NCBI GenBank assembly: GCA_937927755.1
Contig: CALBDB010000082.1
Location: forward strand, 1 to 35,718
Direction: 5' to 3'
DNA from: an uncultured Lysobacterales bacterium
GTDB taxonomy: Bacteria; Pseudomonadota; Gammaproteobacteria; Xanthomonadales; SZUA-36
Length of the DNA: 35,718 nucleotides
The notes beneath the pieces were generated by a model. That model was not told where the DNA came from, made no database searches, and saw only the letters and a program-made list of their open reading frames with translations. The position numbers and the translations under genes are program-made. The number at the start of each line of letters is the position of its first letter. Within the stretch, counting starts at the first letter, position 1. This document shows, in pieces, positions 18,396-31,721 of the stretch.

Positions 18396-18534
18396 GAACA
18401 ATAGGTTTTCCAGCGTGGACTGGAACACCACGTTGGAACTCTCGAGTAAGATAAAGAAAGCAAACACATTCCTTGTGTGCAAGCGGAAATTGGCGACACT
18501 TCCTTGTCCGTCACTCAAATGCGTTGGCAACATT

Positions 18535-18654
18535 AGCCAGTTTGGCACTTTGGCTATAGCCACTATGGCATTCTGTCTATAGCCAGTTTGGCATTTTGTC
18601 TATAGCCAGTTTGGCATTCTGTCTATAGCCAGTTTGGCATTTTGTCTATAGCCA
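18535..18654. repeat. Tandem array of five 23-bp repeats
   Basis: Five units of exactly 23 bp start at 18535, 18558, 18581, 18604 and 18627, with a partial sixth at 18650. The shared parts are AGCCAGTTTGGCATT and a TGTCTAT end. Each standard unit can form a small hairpin (GCCA-GTT-TGGC). The first junction makes a perfect 12-bp palindrome TGGCTATAGCCA (18551-18562). The 23-bp period is not a multiple of three, so it is unlikely to be coding. The rest of the 18396-18793 gap shows an AT-rich stretch (about 18650-18710) and no supported gene. Confidence 0.93.
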
Positions 18655-19177: not shown

Positions 19178-19828
19178 TCAACCGCTTGCCCCCGGACGCT
19201 TGAGCGTGGCGGGCAGCAATGCCTCGACACGTTCCATTACATCGAGACAGTCCACCATGTCGTTGATGTAATCGAGTTTGTCGGTTTCAAGGATAAGCAC
19301 CTCTCCGTACGGATAAGAAGCGAGCCACTTATCATACAGCTTTTCCAGCCTTTTCAGGTAGGCAAGCGGTATATCCCTTTCCATTGCGCGGCCGCGCATT
19401 CGGATACGTTTCCGCAGGGTTCGCATTGAACAACGCAGGTATATCATCAGGTCCGGGGGGCGAATAGCATCGAGTATTGTCTGGTAGAAACTCCAGTAAG
19501 TATCCCAGTCCCGGCCGGCAAAATTGCGCATATCGTGTAAGGCGGTGGCGAAAATTTCTGCATCCTCGTAGATGGTTCGGTCAAGGACGACAGTGCCCGG
19601 CACCTGCTCCAGTTGCTGGTGCATACGAAATTTGCTGCTCAGAAAATAAAGCTGGGAATGAAATGCCCAACGGTTCATGTCCTGGTAGAAGTCGGGCAGG
19701 TACGGATTTTCGTCATTGGGTTCGTAAAACGGTTGTATTCCGTAAGTCCGCGTCAGAAACTCAACCAGCGAAGACTTGCCGGAACCTATGTTTCCGGCTA
19801 TGGCAATGGTTCTTTGTGACTGGTTCAT
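19178..19828 (-). CDS. Deoxynucleoside kinase family protein
   Basis: The product is 216 residues. The P-loop is GNIGSGKSS (12-20), the substrate-side DRx motif is DRTIYED (83-89), and the lid is RIRMRGRAMERD (141-152). These place it with the dGK/dAK/dCK-type deoxynucleoside kinases, which phosphorylate deoxynucleosides with ATP for salvage in the cytoplasm. The preferred base cannot be told. Its ATG overlaps the TGA of the upstream decarboxylase gene by four bases, so it is very likely translated from the same transcript, an odd metabolic pairing. Confidence 0.9.
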   Translation of the reverse strand: MNQSQRTIAIAGNIGSGKSSLVEFLTRTYGIQPFYEPNDENPYLPDFYQDMNRWAFHSQLYFLSSKFRMHQQLEQVPGTVVLDRTIYEDAEIFATALHDMRNFAGRDWDTYWSFYQTILDAIRPPDLMIYLRCSMRTLRKRIRMRGRAMERDIPLAYLKRLEKLYDKWLASYPYGEVLILETDKLDYINDMVDCLDVMERVEALLPATLKRPGASG

Positions 19829-21300
19829 AATAATCTGTTGCCGAGTTCTACCACCACCTCTGCAAACTCTTCCACGTCCTTTTTGCGTGTTCGCCAGTTG
19901 GAAAACGCCGGCCTGAATATCGTTCGTTTTCCGATTCTGGAAGTGCCTGCCATGAATCGGCCATCGGCAATGACCACTTCCCCAAGCCGATGGTTCAAAC
20001 CGTCAAGCTCACCTTCACCAAGTCCGCCCGGGTTGAAGCGAAACGCCACGATATTCAATGGCACATCCGCCATCAATTCCAGCGAGTTATGCTGACGTAC
20101 CTGGTCTGCAAAGTGATTGGCGATATCCAGGCAGTGTTCAACGATACGGCGGTGACCTTCACGTCCATACGCCTTCAGCGTGGCCCATACTGCAAAACTC
20201 CTGGCTCGCCGGGAGCTTTCCGGCCCGATGGCTCCAAGTGTAGGCCGGGGATCGTTCTCTGATGGCAGGTAGTCGGCGGAATAACGAAATGCCCGCGCCA
20301 TCAGACCGATGTCCCTTACAAATGCATAACCCGAGTCAAATGGCACATTGAGCCACTTGTGCCCGTCAACGGTGACCGAGTCCGCGCGCTCAACGCCGTC
20401 CGCGAAATGAGCGACCCTGGGTGAAACCCTTGCAAACAGGCCAAAGGCGCCATCCACGTGTACCCAGCAATTATGATCGCGAGCCAGGTTTATCATGTCA
20501 TTGACGGGGTCAAATTCACCGGAGTTGACCTCACCGGCATTTACGATGACTACGGCGGGCTGTCCTTCCAGGTCTTCAAGTGCCTGTCGCATGGCGTCGA
20601 TATCCAGCCTGCCAAAATCATCGCGGCAAAATTGCTGCACATTGGATCTTCCAATTCCCTGTAATGCCAAGACCTTAAGTGTGCTGGCATGGACAAAACC
20701 AGAAGTCAGGACCGGCATTTGCGGTTTGCCTGCCATGCCTGTTTCCGAGACATCAAAGCCGTGCTGCTCCCCCCACCACTGGCGGGCAGAGGCCAGGCCG
20801 ACGAAATTGGCCATGGTCGCGCCCGTGACCATGATTCCTGACATGGATGAGGGTAGGCCAAAGAGTTCCTTGAGCCAGCTTAATGCCTGCAATTCCATCT
20901 GCACGCCGACCGGGGAGACCACCCAGGTATAGGTAACGGTCTCATAGGCTGTTGCCAACAGGTCAGCTGCCATTGAAGCCGGTGTGTTCCCGCCTATGAT
21001 GAAATGGAAACATTTCGGTCCGCCGGTATTTGCAGCAGCCTTTGCATTGATTTCGAGCAGTTTCTCGATGCTTTTTTGAGCCCCGCAACCGGTACCGGGT
21101 AATGGTTCTTGCAAAACTTCGAGGGCGGCATTGGCGCCTGTGGTGAGGGCAGGGCGATCATCCATTCCAAGAACGGCGTCCGCCAGCGCGGTATTCAGTT
21201 GGACCAGCAGGTCTTCAATCTCGGCCCGGAACAGCTCAGCGATGTCAGTGTCATCAGTGCTTTCACCGCTGACCGGAGTTGGCTTATGCTGCTCGCTCAT
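19825..21300 (-). CDS. Group II pyridoxal-dependent amino acid decarboxylase (1)
   Basis: The product is 491 residues, typical of the aromatic-amino-acid/glutamate/2,4-diaminobutyrate decarboxylase group. The PLP lysine is K315 in TVDGHKWLN, D283 in HVDGA binds the pyridine nitrogen, and H204 in FVHAST is the likely stacking histidine. Substrate cannot be assigned from sequence reading alone; aromatic amino acids are a good guess. It shares its 3' end with the kinase gene (ATGA overlap) and is divergent, 98 bases apart, from a second decarboxylase of the same fold. Confidence 0.9.
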   Translation of the reverse strand: MSEQHKPTPVSGESTDDTDIAELFRAEIEDLLVQLNTALADAVLGMDDRPALTTGANAALEVLQEPLPGTGCGAQKSIEKLLEINAKAAANTGGPKCFHFIIGGNTPASMAADLLATAYETVTYTWVVSPVGVQMELQALSWLKELFGLPSSMSGIMVTGATMANFVGLASARQWWGEQHGFDVSETGMAGKPQMPVLTSGFVHASTLKVLALQGIGRSNVQQFCRDDFGRLDIDAMRQALEDLEGQPAVVIVNAGEVNSGEFDPVNDMINLARDHNCWVHVDGAFGLFARVSPRVAHFADGVERADSVTVDGHKWLNVPFDSGYAFVRDIGLMARAFRYSADYLPSENDPRPTLGAIGPESSRRARSFAVWATLKAYGREGHRRIVEHCLDIANHFADQVRQHNSLELMADVPLNIVAFRFNPGGLGEGELDGLNHRLGEVVIADGRFMAGTSRIGKRTIFRPAFSNWRTRKKDVEEFAEVVVELGNRLL

Positions 21301-21397: not shown

Positions 21398-22849
21398 ATG
21401 TTGAACAGGATAAAAGAACTCGAAAACCGGGCGAATGGACTCGAACCATCCGCCGCTGTTCGTGAAATCATTACCCATCAGGCCAGGGACTTTGCCGAGT
21501 CTTTCCTGGAAAAACTACCGGAAATAAATACCTTCGAGCCCAACACGGGACAAAGCGAGTTTCTGGATGAGCCATTTTCCGAGGATGCTGGTGAGCTCCC
21601 CCGCCTGTTGGAAACACTGGAAACAGCGGTCCTTAAAGAAGGTATCCAGCCGGCATCAGGAGGTCACATGGGCTATATCCCCGGCGGGGGTATTTACCCT
21701 GCAGCCCTGGGTGATTTCCTGGCTGATGTCACCAACTGCTATTCCGGTGTCTCATTTGCATCGCCCGGTGGTGTGAGGATGGAGCAGCTCCTGGTCAAGT
21801 GGATGACCGGCCTCGTGGGTTTCCCTGCAAATTCGGGTGGTGACCTGACCTCCGGCGGAAGTGTGGCGAACCTGACCGCAATCGTGACGGCAAGGGAAAC
21901 CAAGAATATCAGGGCCAGGGATGTCGACAACAGCTGTATATACATGACCGCCGACGCCCATCATTGCCTGGACAAATCAATAAGGGCGGCAGGTCTCGCA
22001 GACTGTAAAAAGCGGCTGGTGCCGATGGATGAGCATTTTCGGATGGATGCGGTTGCTCTTGAGCAGTTGGTTATCGAGGACAAGACCTCGGGCTTGCGGC
22101 CGTGGCTTATCATTACATCGGCAGGCACAACCGACACCGGCGCCGTCGATCCGGTTGCGACCATCGCAGACCTGGCCAGGCAGCACGACCTCTGGCTGCA
22201 CGTCGATGCAGCCTACGGCGGGTTTTTCCTGTTGTGCGAAGAGGGCAGGCAGGTGTTGAAGGGTCTGGACAAGGCACATTCCATAGTGCTGGATCCGCAC
22301 AAGGGCATGTTTCTGCCATACGGCTCGGGCGCCGTACTGGTCAGGGACATAGAGTGGCTGGCACAGGCACATGGCTACCAGGCAGACTATATGCAGGATG
22401 CAAAAATTGCAGCGGAGGACTACTCGCCGGCAGATTTATCTCTCGAATTGACCCGGCCTTTCCGCGGTCTGCGTTTCTGGTTGCCATTAAAGCTGTTCGG
22501 CCTGGCCCCTTTTCGTGCAGCCCTTTCAGAAAAAATCCTGCTGGCCCGCTATTTTTATGAACAACTGGACTCAACTCCGGGTTGGGAGTTGGGCCCTTAC
22601 CCGGATTTGTCCGTAGTAGCCTTCCGATTCGTCCCCGGGCAGGGTGATGCTGATGCTTTCAACAAGCAAATCGTCGAAGCGGTCCAGGCCGATGGCAAAG
22701 TATTTATCAGTTCAACCCTGATTGACGGTGTGTTTTATCTGCGTCTGGCAGTCTTGCACTTCCGCACCCACCTGGCACAAGTGGACTACCTGTTACATCT
22801 ATTGAAGGGCCTGACCAATGAGTTGGGTACCCAATATGGAGAACAGTAG
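21398..22849 (+). CDS. Group II pyridoxal-dependent amino acid decarboxylase (2)
   Basis: The product is 483 residues. The PLP lysine is K302 in LDPHKGMFLPYG, the pyridine-binding Asp is D270 in LHVDAAYGG, and the stacking His is H188 or H189 in TADAHHCLD. It also has TSGGSVANL (151-159) and TSAGTTDTGAVDP (240-252), which are family hallmarks. It is clearly a different branch from the divergent decarboxylase upstream, with little visible identity outside motifs, so they probably act on different substrates. The product is likely an amine made in the cytoplasm. No transporter adjoins it. Confidence 0.9.
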   Translation: MLNRIKELENRANGLEPSAAVREIITHQARDFAESFLEKLPEINTFEPNTGQSEFLDEPFSEDAGELPRLLETLETAVLKEGIQPASGGHMGYIPGGGIYPAALGDFLADVTNCYSGVSFASPGGVRMEQLLVKWMTGLVGFPANSGGDLTSGGSVANLTAIVTARETKNIRARDVDNSCIYMTADAHHCLDKSIRAAGLADCKKRLVPMDEHFRMDAVALEQLVIEDKTSGLRPWLIITSAGTTDTGAVDPVATIADLARQHDLWLHVDAAYGGFFLLCEEGRQVLKGLDKAHSIVLDPHKGMFLPYGSGAVLVRDIEWLAQAHGYQADYMQDAKIAAEDYSPADLSLELTRPFRGLRFWLPLKLFGLAPFRAALSEKILLARYFYEQLDSTPGWELGPYPDLSVVAFRFVPGQGDADAFNKQIVEAVQADGKVFISSTLIDGVFYLRLAVLHFRTHLAQVDYLLHLLKGLTNELGTQYGEQ

Positions 22850-23044: not shown

Positions 23045-24316
23045 ATGAATCATGAAGCACATCCAAACGAGATTACCCGCGAGTCGCTGGTAAGCATTCT
23101 CGAAATCATGCATCGACTGGCCGCGCCGGAAGCGATGCCCGAGTTATTGAGGGAAATTATCGAAGTGGGCAAGGTCGCTATCGTGGCCGAAACCGGTGTG
23201 TTGTGGTTGTTGGACAAAAATTCACAGCAACTTGTCAAGGTAGTGCCCGCCAGTGATAAACCGGAGCGGCTTGAATTCACAGAGGGCTGGGTAGGGAAAT
23301 GTGCTACTGATCTCACCATCAGTAATATCCACGAGTGCAGGGAGGACGAATTGTTTCTTGCTTACCCTGCGCATATTGCCGGAGGCGAAACCCGTTCCCT
23401 GTTAAATGTTCCAATCCTCGGGCTGGATGAGTCTCTATTGGGTGTGATGCAATGGCTGGGGGCTAAGACCGGCCAGTTTGATGAGCACGATGAGTGGGTT
23501 GGCCCTGCGCTGGCTGCACAGGCGGCGGTTGCCATCCAGCATTCATACATGACCGACGAGTTGCTCGCCAGCGCCGTACTGAGCCAGGAAGTGGCAGTGG
23601 CGCGTGAGATTCAGATGAGTACATTGCCCGACAGTATGCCCGTCGTGCCCGGCTATGACCTGCACGGATATTTTCAACCAACCGACCACACCGGGGGCGA
23701 TCTGTATGACCTGGTGATGCTGGACGAACGATTGTTCATGTTGCTCGGGGATGCTACCGGCCATGGTTTTGGGCCGGCCTTATCGGCCACGCAAATGCAG
23801 GCCATGTTGCGCGTTTCGTTCCGCCTTGGGGCTGATCTGGACCGTGCTTACATGCACGTCAATAACCAGCTTTCGGAAGACCTGCCGGACGACAGGTTCA
23901 TCACCGCGTTCATGGGCTTCCTGGATCCGGCCATACACGTCGTCAACTATCACTCGGGCGGACAGGGGCCAATATTGCATTTCCGTGCTGCAGACGAGTC
24001 CTGCGACTGGCACAAACCAACCAGTTTTCCCGTTGGCATCATGGATATCGATGATGGACAGCAAGCGGCTAATCTGTCGTTGGAGCCCGGTGACATACTT
24101 GCGCTGATTTCCGATGGCGTATACGAGTACAACAATGAGGAAGGTGAGGAATTTGGCGAAGGTCGTGTAGCAGGGATTTTCAAAACCCATCATCGGCTGC
24201 CAATGGCGGAATTGACGAACCGTTTGATCACATCTGTGCAACAGTTTGGGGGGGCTGCACCTCAGCAGGATGACATCACCCTGGTATTGGTTCGCCGCCA
24301 GCCAAATTCTTCCTAG
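23045..24316 (+). CDS. GAF domain / SpoIIE-type PP2C serine phosphatase (RsbU-like)
   Basis: The product is 423 residues. A GAF sensor domain fills about 15-170, and a PPM/SpoIIE phosphatase domain about 190-420. Metal-binding aspartates are present: D219 in TGGDLYD, D236 in LLGDATGHG, the Asp of LISDGVYE, and D409/D410 in DDITLVLV, so it should be active. By family it dephosphorylates a STAS anti-anti-sigma protein; the STAS gene two places downstream is the natural substrate. It has no membrane segment, so the GAF domain would sense a cytoplasmic small molecule or redox cue. It heads a three-gene partner-switching cassette. The ribosome site is poor. Confidence 0.93.
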   Translation: MNHEAHPNEITRESLVSILEIMHRLAAPEAMPELLREIIEVGKVAIVAETGVLWLLDKNSQQLVKVVPASDKPERLEFTEGWVGKCATDLTISNIHECREDELFLAYPAHIAGGETRSLLNVPILGLDESLLGVMQWLGAKTGQFDEHDEWVGPALAAQAAVAIQHSYMTDELLASAVLSQEVAVAREIQMSTLPDSMPVVPGYDLHGYFQPTDHTGGDLYDLVMLDERLFMLLGDATGHGFGPALSATQMQAMLRVSFRLGADLDRAYMHVNNQLSEDLPDDRFITAFMGFLDPAIHVVNYHSGGQGPILHFRAADESCDWHKPTSFPVGIMDIDDGQQAANLSLEPGDILALISDGVYEYNNEEGEEFGEGRVAGIFKTHHRLPMAELTNRLITSVQQFGGAAPQQDDITLVLVRRQPNSS

Positions 24317-24327
24317 ACGAGGTTAAA

Positions 24328-24729
24328 ATGGAACAAAAATTCACACGAAGCTTTGATGAACTGAAAAATATTGTCACAATGACGGAGGATTTTTTCAAAG
24401 AGGAGAAATTACCGCCGGGCTTGCGTAACGTGGTTGACCTTGCAACCGAAGAATTGTTTGTCAATATGGTTACCTACAATACCGAGTCGAGCGAGGATAT
24501 CCTTATACAAATGGTGCCGCACGATCATGGTGTCGAGGTCAGCCTGACCGACTATGATGTAGAACGATTTGATCCGACAGGCATTGGTCCGATTGATGTG
24601 AGCGCACCGTTGGATGAACGCACACCCGGGGGATTGGGCTTGTACCTGGTGCTGAAAATGGTCGATTCGATCAATTACGAATACCGCAACCGGCAAAGCA
24701 GGATTACCTTTGTTGTAGACAGGAAGTAA
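24328..24729 (+). CDS. RsbW-like ATP-binding anti-sigma/switch kinase (HATPase_c_2)
   Basis: The product is 133 residues, the usual length of RsbW-like serine kinases. The N box is ATEELFVNMVTYN and the G2 box is PGGLGLYLV. The G1 box reads TDYDVERFDP where relatives usually have a glycine (DDGxPFDP-like), here Val. This may lower ATP binding or kinase activity. It would bind and phosphorylate the STAS protein, or a sigma-like target. It starts 11 bases after the phosphatase stop (GAGG upstream) and ends four bases before the STAS gene, so all three are one operon. Confidence 0.92.
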   Translation: MEQKFTRSFDELKNIVTMTEDFFKEEKLPPGLRNVVDLATEELFVNMVTYNTESSEDILIQMVPHDHGVEVSLTDYDVERFDPTGIGPIDVSAPLDERTPGGLGLYLVLKMVDSINYEYRNRQSRITFVVDRK

Positions 24730-24733
24730 CCGG

Positions 24734-25030
24734 ATGTTTGAAATTGAAATCAGCGATGAAGGAAAGATCCTGGTAGAGGGCAGGCTGGATGCCGCACAGG
24801 CGGTCAAGGCCCAGGAATTTCTTGACAGGGTTGAGGGCCAATGCGTGTTGGATCTGGGCAAACTTGAATACATATCGAGCGCCGGACTGGGTGTTCTGTT
24901 GAAAACACACAAACGCCTGATGGGCTTTGGCAGCGGTATAAAGCTGATCAATGTCAATCACCACATCCACGATATATTTCGTTATTCGGGTTTCGATAAG
25001 CTTTTCGAGATCGTAGCAGCAGGCGACTAA
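24734..25030 (+). CDS. STAS domain anti-sigma factor antagonist
   Basis: The product is 98 residues, a single STAS domain. The phosphorylation site is S48 or S49 in LEYISSAGLGVLL. Its unphosphorylated form would bind the RsbW-like protein and release that protein's target; the SpoIIE phosphatase would reactivate it. It begins MFEIEISDEGK, with AGGAAG just before the ATG. The ECF sigma gene starts 71 bases later, so the operon may or may not continue. Confidence 0.94.
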   Translation: MFEIEISDEGKILVEGRLDAAQAVKAQEFLDRVEGQCVLDLGKLEYISSAGLGVLLKTHKRLMGFGSGIKLINVNHHIHDIFRYSGFDKLFEIVAAGD

Positions 25031-25101: not shown

Positions 25102-25665
25102 ATGCATAAGGACAAGGATGCTGCCCTTGTAAACGGCTGCAAACAGGGCGATCGGCGTGCAATGTCACAGGTGATCAGCCAATACCAGCGCCCCGTTTAC
25201 AACGCAGCGTACCGGATCTTGGGAGATATGGACGATGCTGCTGATACCACTCAAGTTGTTTTTATCAAGGTATTTGAACACATCGCGGATTATGACCCGA
25301 AGTATAAATTCTTCAGTTGGGTTTACCGGATAGCGATCAATGAGTCTCTTAACCAGGTTAAGAAACGTCGTCCGCAAGAGCCTTTGGCTGATAGCCAAGC
25401 TTCGCCGTGGCCAGGTCCTGCTCAAGTGCTGGACACCAGGCGGACATGTAACCGGGTCCAGGCAGCGTTGATGCTATTGAACGAGGATTACAGAGCAGTG
25501 GTTGTACTAAAACATTTTTCAGGTTGCAGTTACAGGCAGATAGGCGAAATACTGCAATTACCAGAGAAAACGGTGAAATCCCGTTTGTACTCGGCTCGCC
25601 AGCTCATGAAGAAATCACTACAGGAAGATGGAAGTCAGGTTAACGGGGGTGGTAGTCATGAGTGA
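25102..25665 (+). CDS. ECF-type RNA polymerase sigma factor
   Basis: The product is 187 residues, typical for an ECF sigma. Region 2 covers about 20-90 (DMDDAADTTQVVFIKVFEHI, then KFFSWVYRIAINESLNQVKKR). Region 4 covers about 118-175, with the helix-turn-helix YRQIGEILQLPEKTVKSRLY. No region 3 is present. The next gene overlaps its end by eight bases and encodes a membrane anti-sigma, the standard pairing. Start choice: the ATG at 25102 has only a weak GGGAT upstream, and the next in-frame ATG would cut into region 2. It probably drives its own operon and the repeat-protein gene. Confidence 0.93.
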   Translation: MHKDKDAALVNGCKQGDRRAMSQVISQYQRPVYNAAYRILGDMDDAADTTQVVFIKVFEHIADYDPKYKFFSWVYRIAINESLNQVKKRRPQEPLADSQASPWPGPAQVLDTRRTCNRVQAALMLLNEDYRAVVVLKHFSGCSYRQIGEILQLPEKTVKSRLYSARQLMKKSLQEDGSQVNGGGSHE

Positions 25666-26446
25666 ACAGAATCGCATCGATCAACATACCCTGGATCTGC
25701 TTAACGGTGGCATTGATGGCGAGTTGAGTCCGGTGGAACAGCAGGAACTGGATGTGCTGCTGGCAGGTTCGGAAGAAGTCCGGGACATCAGAGATGAGTT
25801 GGAGGCGTTCTCGCGACTACTGGAGGATACTCCTGAAATAGAACCGCCTGCTTACTTGCAGGAATCAATTGAAAAACAGATCAGGTTGCCGGTGCCAGGT
25901 GAGGAGAAAAATCTAGGCGTTTTCAGCGCCTGGTTTTCTGCACATTGGCTGCGCACCGGTTTTGCGCTCGCTGCTGGTATCTTTTTGACGGTTGGCGTCT
26001 ATGAAATGGGTTCCGGGCCAACCAACACCATGGACTCAAACAAGATGGTGGGCACGGTGGTCAAGAGCCAGTCGCCGGGGCAGGGCAAACTGCTGGACAG
26101 TGTCCATGTTGTTACCGATACGTTGAATGGCCAGGTCGAACTTCGCAGAAATGACGATCTTTTTACGTTGGATGTGAAACTGGTCTCAGACGGGCCGACA
26201 GGGGTGAATGTTAATTTTGCCGATCGGGGCCTGGATTTCGAAGGAATTACCCGCGTACAGGAGAGTAACGATGTGGTTTCAGTGGTGGACGGCACCATAA
26301 AGGTCGCCAGCAGTGGCGAGCAGCACTATTCGCTGAAATTGCGACGAACTGCCGGTACAGCTGACCAGCAATCTATCCCATTGGATCTGGAATTTTTTGC
26401 AAATGAAACCCTGGTGCACCAGGCCGAGTTAAGTATTCCCAGGTAA
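25658..26446 (+). CDS. Membrane-bound anti-sigma factor for the adjacent ECF sigma
   Basis: From the ATG at 25658 the product is 262 residues. The N-terminal part (NGGIDGELSPVEQQELDVLL, about residues 15-34) matches the anti-sigma domain that grips ECF factors. It lacks the HxxxCxxC zinc motif. One transmembrane helix lies near 95-115 (TGFALAAGIFLTVGVYEMG). The remaining 145 residues would be outside the cytoplasm and beta-rich. Release of the sigma probably needs cleavage of this protein; a PrsW-family protease is encoded at 30711. The ORF overlaps the sigma gene by eight bases, which couples their translation. Confidence 0.85.
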   Translation: MSEQNRIDQHTLDLLNGGIDGELSPVEQQELDVLLAGSEEVRDIRDELEAFSRLLEDTPEIEPPAYLQESIEKQIRLPVPGEEKNLGVFSAWFSAHWLRTGFALAAGIFLTVGVYEMGSGPTNTMDSNKMVGTVVKSQSPGQGKLLDSVHVVTDTLNGQVELRRNDDLFTLDVKLVSDGPTGVNVNFADRGLDFEGITRVQESNDVVSVVDGTIKVASSGEQHYSLKLRRTAGTADQQSIPLDLEFFANETLVHQAELSIPR

Positions 26447-26472: not shown

Positions 26473-26545
26473 TGCGGAATGGCGGTATTACGATCATAGG
26501 CCCGCTGTGGTCTTGACGTGTTAATCATAAAGAGGAGCAAACATA

Positions 26546-27487
26546 ATGAGCATGAACAATCAGAAAACCTGGATGTTAATCCTTGGGTTGGCAGTCGTCG
26601 TTGGCGGTGTTGCCATCTTTAGTAATGATTTCCCATCAGGTGGTAACCAGGCTTCAGGAACGATTGTTCCCGCCGAGCGCTATCGTGGTGAGCAGATCAG
26701 CGCCAGCGATGTTGAACTCGGAGACGAAAGTGTCGCCCAGGTGATGCAAACCGACCTGTTCCAGAAGATCGTAAGCGACGCTTCATTTGCTGCCGCCCTC
26801 AATAGTGATGCATTCAGAGAGGCGATGGCCAGCGAAGCGTTCCGTTCCGCCATGAACAGCGAGGCTTTTCGTTCAGCGATGAACAGTGAAGCTTTCCGTT
26901 CTGCCATGAACAGTGAGGCCTTCCGTTCTGCCATGAACAGTGAGGCTTTCCGTTCTGCCATGAACAGTGAGGCCTTCCGTTCAGCCATGAACAGCGAGGC
27001 CTTCCGTACAGCGATGAACGCCGAGGCTTTCCGTTCAGCCATGAACAGCGAGGCTTTCCGTACAGCGATGAACAGCGAAGCATTTCGCACAGCGTTAGCC
27101 AGTGACAGTTTCCGCACGGCCATGGCCAACGATGCTGCGTTTGACGCGGCCCTGGCAAGTGATGCAGCACTTTCGTCGGCCATGGAGAATGAAGCATTCC
27201 GTACAGCGATGAACAGCGAAGCGTTCCGTTCAGCGATGAACAGCGAGGCTTTCCGTTCAGCGATGAACAGCGAAGCGTTCCGTTCAGCGATGAACAGCGA
27301 GGCCTTCCGGTCGGCGATGAACAGTGAAGCCTTTCGTACAGCGATGAACAGTGAGGCTTTCCGTTCAGCGATGAACAGTGAAGCATTCCGAACGGCGATG
27401 GCTAGCGACAGCTTCCGTTCAGCGATGGCCAGTGACAGCTTCCGCACGGCCATGGCCAACGAGGCACTCAGGAACGCATCACAGTAG
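26546..27487 (+). CDS. Membrane-anchored protein of about 26 nonapeptide repeats
   Basis: The product is 313 residues. AGAGGAG at 26531 is a strong ribosome site. Residues 9-26 form one hydrophobic helix (signal anchor). A short linker is followed by tandem units from about residue 77 to the end, mostly SEAFRSAMN or SEAFRTAMN. Three units have ten residues (SDASFAAALN, NDAAFDAALA, SDAALSSAME) and split the array into two blocks. The repeat part has no Cys, Trp, Gly or Pro and balances Glu and Arg. Codons differ between units while residues stay fixed (AGC/AGT, GAA/GAG, GCG/GCC/GCT), which suggests selection on the protein. I know no such family. It is probably helical and extracytoplasmic, under control of the upstream ECF sigma. 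Confidence 0.9.
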   Translation: MSMNNQKTWMLILGLAVVVGGVAIFSNDFPSGGNQASGTIVPAERYRGEQISASDVELGDESVAQVMQTDLFQKIVSDASFAAALNSDAFREAMASEAFRSAMNSEAFRSAMNSEAFRSAMNSEAFRSAMNSEAFRSAMNSEAFRSAMNSEAFRTAMNAEAFRSAMNSEAFRTAMNSEAFRTALASDSFRTAMANDAAFDAALASDAALSSAMENEAFRTAMNSEAFRSAMNSEAFRSAMNSEAFRSAMNSEAFRSAMNSEAFRTAMNSEAFRSAMNSEAFRTAMASDSFRSAMASDSFRTAMANEALRNASQ

Positions 27488-27547
27488 TATCGTTGGGGGG
27501 GAAGAGGACTTATCGTTAGAGACCACAAAGCGATAACAAGGTCCAGA

Positions 27548-27580
27548 AAAACCGCCTGCCGCCTGGCAGGCGGTTTTTTT
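27548..27580 (+). terminator. Rho-independent terminator after the repeat-protein gene
   Basis: A 13-bp stem (AAAACCGCCTGCC at 27548-27560 pairing with 27565-27577) with a GCCT loop is followed by a T tract ending at 27580. It lies 60 bases after the stop, so the repeat-protein transcript ends here. Confidence 0.93.
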
Positions 27581-27705
27581 ATGCATGACAAAAAAGTATG
27601 GAACCTGTCGCATAAGGCAACAAACAGTAGTCCAGATTTAAAAAGCAGGGATACCAATTACATAGTATGCTAATAAAAACAATACGATCGACTGGGAGGT
27701 GTGGG

Positions 27706-29034
27706 GTGCGTGCCAGAGTTTTCCTGACTGCTCTTTTTTGCAGTGTCATGCAGGCGCAGGTTGCTGCAGCACCATTTGAAATTGATTTCGTGGAAACAGA
27801 CGATCTGTTGCTGATCTACCAGGATCCATTCCAGACTTACCTGGTGCCTCATATGTCAAAGAGTTTTCATAACTCGGTCGAGTTCCAACGATACCTGTTC
27901 AACTGGACTCCCCATGAGAAAACCACCGTTATCCTGACAGATTTCAGCGACTATGGAAACGCAGGAGCCAGTGTATCACCGCGCAATGCAGTCTCAGTTT
28001 ATATTGCACCATCCAACCGCACCCTGGAAACCTTACCGGGCAATGAAAGAACGTTCATGATTATGAACCACGAGATGACCCACGTGGCGACCATGGATGT
28101 TGCAAACAGCCATGACCTGAAATGGCGACGCTTTTTCGGCGGTAAACCAAGGCAGACCGATCGGCATCCTGAATCGATCCTGTACAACTACCTTGCAACA
28201 CCCCGTCTCAGCGCACCACGCTGGTACCAGGAGGGCTCAGCTGTCTTTGTAGAGACCTGGATGTCGGGCGGCGTCGGCCGCGCACAGGGCGCCTACGATG
28301 AAATGGTATTTCGATCCATGGTCAGGGATGACGCCCATTTCTACAGTAACCTCGGGATCGTTGCCGAGGGCAGCAGTATCGATTTCCAGGGCACGGTGAA
28401 CGCGTATCTTTACGGAACACGCTTTATGAGTTACCTGGCATATGAGTATTCACCCGAACAACTGGTCGAGTGGCTTAAACGGGATGAGGATAGTGAACGG
28501 TACTATGCATCACAGTTTTCAAAGGTGTTCGGCTTGCCGCTTGAAGAAGCTTGGGACCAGTGGATCGGTTTTGAGCATGAATTTCAGCGAAGCAATCTTA
28601 CTGCGATCCGTGAACATGAACTGACAGCTACACGGTCACTTGCCTCAGGTGCCTTGGGGTCGATATCGCGTTCATTCGTTGACGAGGAAGACGGTGTGAT
28701 GATTGGCGCCTTTCGTTACCCGGGGGTGGTTGCCCATATTGGTATCATGTCACTGGCGGACGGAAGCATTGAGCACGTTACGGACATCAAGGGACCCAAG
28801 GTGTACCCAGTGACATCACCAGCCTACGATCCCGCCTCAAAGACACTTTTTTATACCGATGACAACCATGCATACCGGGACCTGATGGCTGTCGATGTGC
28901 AAACCGGTAAAAAACGCATGCTGATCAAGGATGCGCGAATCGGCGACCTGGCTTTCAATGAGGCGGACGGGTCAGTCTGGGGCCTGCGTCATCTCAATGG
29001 CTATGTGTCACTGGTCAGAATCCCACCCCCCTAG
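27706..29034 (+). CDS. Secreted HEXXH metallopeptidase, N-terminal part (ends at an in-frame TAG)
   Basis: The GTG at 27706 is preferred over an ATG at 27667: GGGAGG lies six bases before it, and it gives a clean signal peptide (MRARVFLTALFCSVMQ, then AQVAA). The product is 442 residues. H122/E123/H126 form HEMTH, and EGSAVFVE further on supplies the likely third ligand, so this is a gluzincin of the peptidase MA-like type. From about 300 on the repeats look like a TolB/WD40-like propeller (HIGIMSLADGSIEHVTDIKG; TLFYTDDNHAYRDLMAVD). The frame stops at TAG 29032-29034 but continues in the same frame to 30648, so this is probably the first part of one 980-codon gene. Confidence 0.8.
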   Translation: MRARVFLTALFCSVMQAQVAAAPFEIDFVETDDLLLIYQDPFQTYLVPHMSKSFHNSVEFQRYLFNWTPHEKTTVILTDFSDYGNAGASVSPRNAVSVYIAPSNRTLETLPGNERTFMIMNHEMTHVATMDVANSHDLKWRRFFGGKPRQTDRHPESILYNYLATPRLSAPRWYQEGSAVFVETWMSGGVGRAQGAYDEMVFRSMVRDDAHFYSNLGIVAEGSSIDFQGTVNAYLYGTRFMSYLAYEYSPEQLVEWLKRDEDSERYYASQFSKVFGLPLEEAWDQWIGFEHEFQRSNLTAIREHELTATRSLASGALGSISRSFVDEEDGVMIGAFRYPGVVAHIGIMSLADGSIEHVTDIKGPKVYPVTSPAYDPASKTLFYTDDNHAYRDLMAVDVQTGKKRMLIKDARIGDLAFNEADGSVWGLRHLNGYVSLVRIPPP

Positions 29035-29085
29035 GACGAGTGGAACCAGGTACACACCTGGCTCTATGGTCAGGTCGCCTATGAA

Positions 29086-30648
29086 ATGGATGTTTCAAAA
29101 GATGGCACGATGCTGTCGCTGTCACTCGGGGAAATTGACGCAACACAATACCTGAGGGTGTATCACATCGATGACCTGTTACAGCAGAAGATTGAGCCGG
29201 TTGCGGAGTACAACTTTATTACCTCGGCGCCCGAAGGTTTCGTGTTTTCAGCAGATGGGCGCTACCTGTTTGGAAGTTCATTCTTGACCGGGGTATCCAA
29301 TATTTTCCGGTTTGAGATAGAAACGGGTGACATGGAAGCGGTCAGCAACGCAGAGACCGGGTTTTTCCGCCCGATACCACGTGATGACGGTTCGCTGGTC
29401 GTCTTCGAATTCAGTGGCAAGGGCTTTATTCCATCCGTCATTGACCCGGTGCCTCTCGAAGATCTCAGCGCCACCGTGTTCCTGGGCAACGAAATCGTCA
29501 AGAAACACCCGGTCGTCAGGGACTGGAACGTGGTCAGTACGCTTGCAGACGTCGATCATGACGGCAAGATCATCAAGCAGGGCAAGTACCGGCCGTATCG
29601 TGAGTTGGGGTACGAATCGGGCTATCCGATCATAGAGGGCTACCGGGATTCAATGGCTATCGGCTGGGCGATGAAACTCCAGGATCCGGCACAGTTGAAC
29701 AGCCTCGATATCAGTGCATCCTATTCACCGGACAGCAGCCTGGATTCATCAGAAAGACTGCATTTCAGCGCCGAGTACACGACGTTGAACTGGCATGCGC
29801 GATATTGGCATAACGATGCGGATTTTTATGACCTGTTTGGTCCGACAAAACGCAGCCGAAAAGGTGATGCTTTTATACTGGGATACGAAAAGGCACTGAT
29901 TTTTGACCAGCCAAGGGTGTTGGATTTTTCCGCAGACCTGGCTTATTACACAGGTCTGGACACATTACCGGGCAACCAGAACATACCTACATTTTTCTAC
30001 GAGGACATCCTGCATGGGCAGCTTGAACTCAACTACACAAATACCCGTAAATCCATGGGTGCAGTGGACCACGAAAAAGGCTGGCGGTGGGACCTGGTGG
30101 CGAGCGCCGATCATGCCAACAACGAAACCATACCCAAACTCAGGGCCGGTCTTGATTTTGGCTTTGCGCTGCCATGGAAGCATTCTTCGATATGGTTTTA
30201 TAATTCCGCAGGCACTGCTGACGGAAAACGGCTGAATACTCTGACCAATTTCTATTTTGGCGGGTTTGGCAACAACTACGTGGATGACGGAGAGGTTAAA
30301 CGTTACCGCAAGTTCTATTCCATGCCGGGTTTCGAGATCGATGCAATCGGCGCACGCGATTTTGCCAAATCCGTGGCTGAATGGAATCTGCCACCCATAC
30401 GATTTGAATCGGTGGGCACACCGGGCTTTTTCCTCAGTTGGGTGCGTCCTGCAATTTTCGCGGCTACCATGGTCACCGATCCTGGTGAGAGTTTTGAACG
30501 TACGTTCTCCAGTATCGGTTTTCAGCTCGATTTGCATTTCACGCTGGTTCACAGGCTGCCCATGACCCTCTCTGTTGGATACGCCGCCGGTTACCAGGAC
30601 AGCACGAAACTCGACGATGAGATCATGTTGTCGCTGAAAATATTGTGA
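29086..30648 (+). CDS. Propeller/beta-barrel C-terminal part of the HEXXH metallopeptidase gene
   Basis: This frame is the in-frame continuation after the TAG at 29032; residues DEWNQVHTWLYGQVAYEMD bridge 29035 to the first ATG at 29086. Its first part completes a beta-propeller (AEYNFITSAPEGFVFSADG, then YLFGSSFLTGVSNIF). The last 330 residues are rich in aromatic alternating strands and end SLKIL, suggesting an outer-membrane beta-barrel. It has no signal peptide and no good ribosome site of its own, so it is unlikely to work alone. Taken together the two parts suggest a secreted protease joined to a barrel, inactivated or rescued by readthrough. Confidence 0.75.
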   Translation: MDVSKDGTMLSLSLGEIDATQYLRVYHIDDLLQQKIEPVAEYNFITSAPEGFVFSADGRYLFGSSFLTGVSNIFRFEIETGDMEAVSNAETGFFRPIPRDDGSLVVFEFSGKGFIPSVIDPVPLEDLSATVFLGNEIVKKHPVVRDWNVVSTLADVDHDGKIIKQGKYRPYRELGYESGYPIIEGYRDSMAIGWAMKLQDPAQLNSLDISASYSPDSSLDSSERLHFSAEYTTLNWHARYWHNDADFYDLFGPTKRSRKGDAFILGYEKALIFDQPRVLDFSADLAYYTGLDTLPGNQNIPTFFYEDILHGQLELNYTNTRKSMGAVDHEKGWRWDLVASADHANNETIPKLRAGLDFGFALPWKHSSIWFYNSAGTADGKRLNTLTNFYFGGFGNNYVDDGEVKRYRKFYSMPGFEIDAIGARDFAKSVAEWNLPPIRFESVGTPGFFLSWVRPAIFAATMVTDPGESFERTFSSIGFQLDLHFTLVHRLPMTLSVGYAAGYQDSTKLDDEIMLSLKIL

Positions 30649-30710: not shown

Positions 30711-31721
30711 ATGTGGACCGATTTACTAACCAGGGCGCCGGTCGGACTGTTGCCGGTACTGATTTTTTTGCTCATTCTTTTATACATGGACAGTTACAAG
30801 CTGGTCGGCTTGCGCACCGTGCTATGGGTCATCCTTGCCGGCGCAATCTTGCCGATTGCCGGTTACTGGCTGAACGGCTACGCGCTTGAGTCGCTGGATT
30901 GGGATTTCAGTACCTATTCCCGTTATGCGGCTCCCGTCATTGAAGAGGGCCTGAAAGCTTGCGTGATGATCTTTTTGTTCAGGACCCACAGGATCGGTTT
31001 CCTGGTTGACTCTGCGATCATGGGGTTCGCCGTCGGTGCGGGCTTTGGGGTGGTCGAGAATTTTTACTACCTGTACCTGGCTGCCGATGCCCATATCGCG
31101 GTGTGGGTGGTGCGTGGTTTTGGGACCGCGATCATGCATGGCGGCGTGATGGCACTGTTCGGCGTTATGGCCCAGACCCTGACCGAGCGCAGTATGAAGA
31201 TCAACCCATTGCTGTATCTGCCTGGCTTTATTGTCGCAATCACAATCCACTCGCTGTTTAACCATTTTCCCGGCACCCCCATCCTGACAACGCTTGGAAC
31301 ACTGCTTATCCTGCCGCCGGTTTTGTTCGTCGTATTCCAGCGAAGTGCGCGGTCCATGCACGAGTGGCTTGAAGTTGATTTTGACGAGGATGCGTTATTG
31401 CTTGAGCAGATCAATTCAGGTGAGTTTACGGAATCAAAGATCGGTCGTTTCCTCAGTGATCTGAAACAGAAGTTCTCCGGTCCGGTGGTTGTCGATATGC
31501 TCTGCTATCTGCGTCTGTACACGGAACTGGCCTTGCGGGCCAAGGGTGTGCTGATGATGCGTGAAAATGGTCTCGACGTCCCAGTGGGTGAGCGCACCAG
31601 GGCCAAGTTTGAAGAGATGCGATACCTTGAGAAAAGCATCGGTAAAACGGGCTGCCTGGCAATGAGCCCGTTTTTACAGATGACCCGCAAGGACCTGTGG
31701 CAACTGTATATCCTTGAATAA
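30711..31721 (+). CDS. PrsW-family intramembrane metalloprotease
   Basis: The product is 336 residues with about seven transmembrane helices in the first 210. The PrsW/CAAX-like motifs are present: E78/E79 in APVIEEGLK, E116/N117 in GFGVVENFYY, H143 in TAIMHGG, and H180/H185 in HSLFNH. The last 120 residues form a cytoplasmic tail not found in short PrsW proteins. In Bacillus subtilis PrsW starts cleavage of the anti-sigma RsiW, so this enzyme may act on the anti-sigma encoded at 25658; that link is inference. It follows the barrel gene by 62 bases. A GGAG lies rather far (about 15 bases) from the ATG. Confidence 0.9.
   Translation: MWTDLLTRAPVGLLPVLIFLLILLYMDSYKLVGLRTVLWVILAGAILPIAGYWLNGYALESLDWDFSTYSRYAAPVIEEGLKACVMIFLFRTHRIGFLVDSAIMGFAVGAGFGVVENFYYLYLAADAHIAVWVVRGFGTAIMHGGVMALFGVMAQTLTERSMKINPLLYLPGFIVAITIHSLFNHFPGTPILTTLGTLLILPPVLFVVFQRSARSMHEWLEVDFDEDALLLEQINSGEFTESKIGRFLSDLKQKFSGPVVVDMLCYLRLYTELALRAKGVLMMRENGLDVPVGERTRAKFEEMRYLEKSIGKTGCLAMSPFLQMTRKDLWQLYILE

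Follow-up and report, generated by a model that had tools for sequence, protein, structure and literature searches.

The window, that is, the whole stretch of 35,718 nucleotides from an uncultured Lysobacterales bacterium that was analysed, contains a gene for an anchored tandem-repeat protein (REP) within a series of stress-regulator and envelope genes on the forward strand (Table 1). The gene order PP2C-RsbW-STAS-ECF sigma-anti-sigma-REP-OMP-PrsW was found to be syntenic in gammaproteobacteria wherever the contigs allow, and REP-OMP-PrsW was kept in the loci of alphaproteobacterial metagenome-assembled genomes (MAGs), with no recognisable sigma or anti-sigma gene upstream. On the basis of these alphaproteobacterial loci, REP was rejected as a sigma-specific part. 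The anti-sigma factor adjoining the ECF sigma factor was assigned by a match to NF052375 (1e-6, under the cut-off of that model), a transmembrane helix (TM) and conserved synteny, and among the flanking genes it shows the lowest conservation. The PrsW motifs EE..K, EN, MH and H..N are invariant in 14 loci, and OMP carries an invariant NHExxH motif with an EG motif downstream, a propeller and a barrel-like C-terminus. In the window, OMP is split by an in-frame TAG (29032-29034) into ORFs at 27667-29034 and 29086-30648, and it is one uninterrupted frame of about 1000 aa in 13 relatives. Conserved readthrough or selenocysteine at this stop was rejected because the relatives carry a sense codon there, and by this comparison the TAG is a lesion or an assembly error limited to the window genome. 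A strong terminator comparable to that of the window is placed behind REP in 14 of the 14 loci examined, alphaproteobacteria included, and REP is therefore probably produced in excess over OMP or transcribed separately.

Table 1. Positions in the window of the REP gene, of the parts of its product and of the neighbouring genes
Feature	Position	Strand	Basis
GAF-SpoIIE-type PP2C phosphatase	23045..24316	+	Pfam, synteny
RsbW-like HATPase_c_2 kinase	24328..24729	+	Pfam, synteny
STAS anti-anti-sigma	24734..25030	+	Pfam, synteny
ECF sigma factor	25102..25665	+	Sigma70_r2 1e-15, r4_2 3e-14; synteny
Membrane anti-sigma factor, GT[IMV] motif after TM	25628..26446	+	weak HMM match
GAGGAG ribosome-binding site, 8 nt 5' of ATG	26532..26537	+	sequence
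REP, anchored tandem-repeat protein, 313 aa	26546..27487	+	open frame
Single transmembrane helix, residues 8-26; basic residue on N-terminal side only	26567..26623	+	hydropathy
Conserved neck ASGTIVPAERYRGEQIS, residues 36-52	26651..26701	+	homologue comparison
Linker DVELGDESVAQVMQTDLFQ.. joining neck to array	26702..26773	+	
Array-opening ten-residue unit SDASFAAALN	26774..26803	+	
Block 1, 12 nine-residue units	26804..27127	+	
Two ten-residue units NDAAFDAALA SDAALSSAME	27128..27187	+	
Block 2, 11 nine-residue units, last one degenerate	27188..27484	+	
Intrinsic terminator 3' of REP	27551..27581	+	
OMP: predicted HExxH metallopeptidase, beta-propeller, outer-membrane barrel	27667..30648	+	
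PrsW-family intramembrane protease	30711..31721	+	PF13367 8e-16

The locus has the features of a PrsW-controlled ECF system, namely an ECF sigma factor, an adjoining transmembrane anti-sigma factor and a PrsW with conserved glutamate/histidine motifs, and it resembles the SigW-RsiW-PrsW system of site-1 anti-sigma proteolysis in Bacillus subtilis (PMC10202637) in holding an ECF sigma factor, a membrane anti-sigma factor and a PrsW-family protease together. It differs from that system by the addition of PP2C-RsbW-STAS and by the REP-OMP module between anti-sigma and PrsW, which is absent in three genomes (G005, G019 and G027).

Anatomy of the repeat array

The original prediction of about 26 units after a signal anchor was borne out: the array runs to the C-terminus and was counted as 23 nine-residue and three ten-residue units, the latter at residues 77-86, 195-204 and 205-214. 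A 27-bp array was detected by TRF at 26822-27427 in REP (score 473) and the autocorrelation of the protein at lag 9 gave an identity of 0.72; the periodicity is far beyond chance. All three ten-residue units had been taken as dividers of the array into two blocks, and this holds for the adjacent pair, which separates the blocks of 12 and 11 units, whereas the third opens the array. Ten-residue units like the adjacent pair recur mid-array in G003, G004, G028 and G022. REP has one TM, at the N-terminus and in a positive-inside orientation, in agreement with the anchored envelope protein that had been proposed.

An antisense ORF of 325 aa (window 26680-27657, minus strand) spans the REP array, and long antisense frames also lie opposite other arrays, e.g. 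505 aa at L007. These frames are probably a by-product of the repeat codon pattern.

Constant anchor and neck with changing tails

Homologues of REP were found in 16 of 61 relatives. Across the order, 16 of 399 genomes gave clear cases, and outside it homologues occur in alphaproteobacterial MAGs and one betaproteobacterial MAG; plasmids were searched and none was found there. G019 and G027 were discarded as carriers, their weak profile matches having turned out to be unrelated proteins. Common to all homologues are the TM, 8 to 11 residues and then GTI[VM]PAERYR..QI...DV.LGD, in which the neck residues G38, T39, I40, A43, R45 and Q50 are invariant among 14 homologues. The repeat units are nine residues long in SEAFRSAMN (window), SDAFRSAMA, SDAFQDALR, SDAFRDALR, SDAFRNALQ, NADFANALA, NDANFRSAL, NPLFAEAMS and RDPAFSGLL, ten in NPQAFAAMAS, HPQAFAAMAQ and NAQAFEALAR, and shorter in SNLNDNVR, TNGGGLS, SNAA and SDK (eight, seven, four and three residues, respectively). 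Most lineages share the pattern [S/N/D][D/E/P]xFxxA[LM]x, and three unrelated units occur within one genus (the window, G003 and G004; G006; G001). As judged from these alignments, the family is defined by the anchor and neck, an exchangeable tail and a conserved sigma/anti-sigma/OMP/PrsW locus, the nonapeptide being the version of the window lineage only. The literature searches yielded no account of either the repeat or the locus.

A GT[IMV]-type motif resembling the REP neck follows the TM of the anti-sigma factor in nearly all of 15 loci, and the TM and motif were aligned weakly between the REP and anti-sigma profiles (hhalign probability 7-32%). In the betaproteobacterial locus L048 (5844-6884), the anti-sigma N-terminal domain continues in frame into REP with no stop between, and at the REP start there is an ATG preceded by a GAGGGG sequence; an anti-sigma/REP fusion is possible there. 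The likeness of the two necks and the arrangement in L048 suggest that a common protease, PrsW, may recognise both the anti-sigma factor and REP.

A second locus in G040 (L084, G040:C104, 1-1898) encodes, besides STAS and PrsW, a protein whose TM is similar and in which a SGTLGGAQK neck is followed by a non-repeat tail (contig cut).

Selection on the units and their predicted fold

The units had been predicted to be old and under purifying selection rather than freshly duplicated. The computed dN/dS gave the expected excess of synonymous changes, with pS of 0.67, pN of 0.16 and dN/dS of about 0.11 for the 23 nine-mers and pN of 0.05 and dN/dS of 0.04 for 17 core units, values to be read with dS near saturation and with units that are not independent. 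When codons were shuffled among residues of the same kind, the pS of the array became 0.70, close to the actual 0.63, and the synonymous sites are therefore near saturation. By these sequence measures purifying selection acts on the array, which is of great age in relation to synonymous change, and dN/dS was below 1 (0.016-0.33) in every array where it was computable. Ser at unit position 1 is encoded by AGY in 20 of 20 cases and Ser at position 6 by TCN in 13 of 13, as compared with 163 AGY and 249 TCN in 16 other window ORFs (Fisher p about 2e-9); although both classes are common in the window, each position uses one class only, and the units thus descend from a common founder. For Ser at position 1, the window and G040 use AGY codons, and G028 and G022 use TCN. 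Because such signatures differ between arrays, the arrays have been re-founded in separate lineages and then held uniform in protein. A change of unit across a whole array that leaves no homogeneous DNA is most simply explained by amplification of a founder and a long period of purifying selection thereafter.

These results bear on the reading of the tail as a bulk spacer or stalk, which needs only length, solubility and repetitiveness and is rebuilt freely from any founder unit; such a tail would act as an arm, entropic or of stacked helices, by which something is positioned or the periplasm is filled. The unlimited variation in composition and unit length (3 to 10 residues) beside a conserved neck, the near absence of Cys, Trp, Tyr and His from most tails and the tail length of about 75 to 510 residues are all in its favour; it is nevertheless considered rather unlikely, as the uniformity of the unit within each protein despite saturated synonymous change goes beyond the needs of a spacer and most lineages converge on the shared unit pattern. 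Periscope Proteins and the stalks of fibrillar adhesins also combine a conserved anchor with a repeat region that varies between relatives, and the Periscope stalks consist of folded domains in tandem and in varying copy number (PMC8201768). REP differs from them in that the unit itself is replaced, and its synonymously saturated units of 3-10 residues are not highly similar tandem domains.

For the fold, the original prediction had left two options, one continuous helix or a short capped helix in each unit. AlphaFold2 (AF2) was run on REP and placed in each unit one separate helix of about seven residues followed by a two-residue turn, with a mean pLDDT of 53 overall and about 62 in the array for the window protein (8-row alignment) and about 85 for L010 (single sequence), although AF2 can be over-regular on perfect repeats. 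Independently of AF2, a continuous amphipathic helix is disfavoured because of the ten-residue units in the array and the Pro at position 2 of homologue units (DPAF, NPLF). The continuous helix was rejected on these grounds and on the AF2 break in every unit, and the favoured model has a single short, N-capped helix in each unit.

The expectation that the repeat belongs to no described family stood: no curated family fitted it in profile searches, and Foldseek of the REP models against solved and viral structures gave no match at E<=0.001. The TAL/BAT-type and designed alpha-repeat proteins are built of two-helix units of 30 or more residues. The likeness of the helical-repeat model to such extendable proteins (8g8i, 4cj9) is weak (E 0.003-0.14), and the TM-scores of 0.19-0.26 do not make a match. 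Pfam matches to Med31, DUF826 and others, and PDB matches to Spt5, protein A and a phage tail fibre, were rejected as repeat or low-complexity artefacts or as too weak.

The tail may also be imagined as an STI1-like holdase, in which short helices capped by NP or DP form hydrophobic grooves for unfolded envelope proteins. The short capped helices of the AF2 models fit this, as do matches above the cut-off to STI1-HOP_DP (PF17830) in L010 (5e-17) and L009 (3e-11) and to XPC-binding in L072 (3e-9), and the STI1/DP domains of Hop/Sti1, ubiquilin and the Rad23 XPC-binding domain likewise have short N/D-P-capped helices with hydrophobic residues spaced by about 4 (PMC13083928). However, unit-permuted control arrays scored up to 4e-17 against unrelated Pfam families and 6e-16 against STI1, one of them better against STI1 than its source, and membership of the REP family in STI1 was rejected because the controls equalled the homologue scores, which are inflated by repetition. 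Window REP gave no PF17830 match at E<=1, no STI1 structure was among the Foldseek matches listed for its low-confidence model, some tails are non-helical, and in REP, unlike in STI1/DP domains, a bacterial membrane anchor bears a long and uniform array of periodic units. A holdase is improbable on this evidence.

Association with OMP and the proposed role

REP and OMP occur together in 14 genomes and OMP was never found without REP; in the two genomes with REP only, the contigs end inside REP. The regulatory genes and PrsW are present and REP and OMP are both absent in G019, G027 and G005, the last of which belongs to the window genus and has sigma, anti-sigma and PrsW. The empty site in G005 (L097, 9929-10183) retains matches to the REP-OMP terminator and to the final codons of OMP at its 3' end, and since the terminator lies between REP and OMP, these scars point to two separate deletions and the loss of both partners. 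Such co-loss, together with the conserved locus and terminator, the dN/dS well below 1 in every computable array and the retention of long open arrays in gamma- and alphaproteobacteria, speaks against a functionless low-complexity expansion that a small membrane protein tolerates at its C-terminus. Slippage makes arrays easily and unit identity is unconstrained between lineages, as neutral expansion would have it, yet this account is disfavoured and held to be very improbable.

In the congener G001, the neck is 81% identical to that of the window and 37% to that of the alphaproteobacterial L042, while the 41 residues after the neck are 37% identical to the window and 68% to L042 (permutation p about 1e-5); the same test was not significant for the controls G003 and G004. 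The exchange point is near residue 53 of REP, in the linker, and the junction lies inside one contig. By sequence, G001 REP is best described as a chimera of a genus-like neck and an alphaproteobacterial-like tail. In columns 100-200 of its peptidase region, G001 OMP is nearer to alphaproteobacteria (77-78% against 61-68%); the barrel is genus-like, and PrsW is 86% identical to that of the window as against 47% to those of alphaproteobacteria. It thus seems that a tract spanning the tail and the OMP peptidase domain was replaced. As the tail and the OMP start are adjacent on the DNA, this fits co-adaptation of tail and OMP without proving it, and a single recombination tract of no functional significance could account for the joint exchange.

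It is tentatively proposed, as a possibility that we would not yet call probable, that REP is a membrane-anchored periplasmic repeat arm which forms a functional pair with OMP as an accessory module of the ECF-sigma/anti-sigma/PrsW envelope-response locus. REP would sit in the inner membrane with its N-terminus in and its C-terminus out, and the tail would be a replaceable, multivalent repeat arm in the periplasm, formed in the window species by 26 short N-capped helices in a chain, with one helix to each unit. PrsW may bind the conserved neck and perhaps cleave it, as it may do with the similar neck of the anti-sigma factor, and the tail would meet OMP as a ligand, a substrate or a tether across the periplasm and be swapped or rebuilt as the OMP peptidase domain or the environment changes. 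Counted against this arm model are the SDK, SNAA and TNGGGLS tails, which cannot share a fold or a binding surface with helical tails, the weak similarity of the anti-sigma neck and the low AF2 confidence. As a more doubtful generalisation, REP might represent a new class of envelope proteins, in which a conserved anchor and neck carry an interchangeable arm (helical 9/10-mers or non-helical 3-8-mers) that is co-adapted with OMP, is renewed by tail exchange and re-amplification, and reports to the ECF sigma factor via PrsW.

Two proteases and a sigma/anti-sigma system in one locus, units that are uniform within a protein and differ between congeners, and an anti-sigma factor that is less conserved than the other flanking genes would also suit a tandem peptide precursor, cut by OMP or PrsW into numerous copies of a short, species-specific signal peptide that is sensed via the anti-sigma factor. 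The changes between species, however, preserve the helix-packing pattern and not a cut site, no cleavage residue is conserved, the units within an array vary (S/T, E/D, N/A, 9 or 10 residues) and SDK and SNAA would be poor signals, so that such a precursor is judged quite unlikely.

The analysis separates a conserved anchor, neck, locus and partner gene from a repeat that is replaced wholesale, and raises the question of the part played by a repetitive tail whose sequence is free between species and uniform within each. The question is testable as one genus includes loci that retain the REP-OMP pair, loci that have lost it and loci in which the tail has been exchanged. If the favoured fold is true, an array of one helix per nine residues would be among the smallest alpha-helical repeats.

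Upstream of the locus, a divergent gene pair like PLP-dependent group II decarboxylases was observed (window 19825-21300, minus strand, and 21398-22849, plus strand), the second gene of which keeps its place beside PP2C in several relatives. An intergenic 23-bp tandem repeat, TAGCCAGTTTGGCATTTTGTCTA, is located at 18534-18654 of the window in 5.3 copies that are 89% identical.
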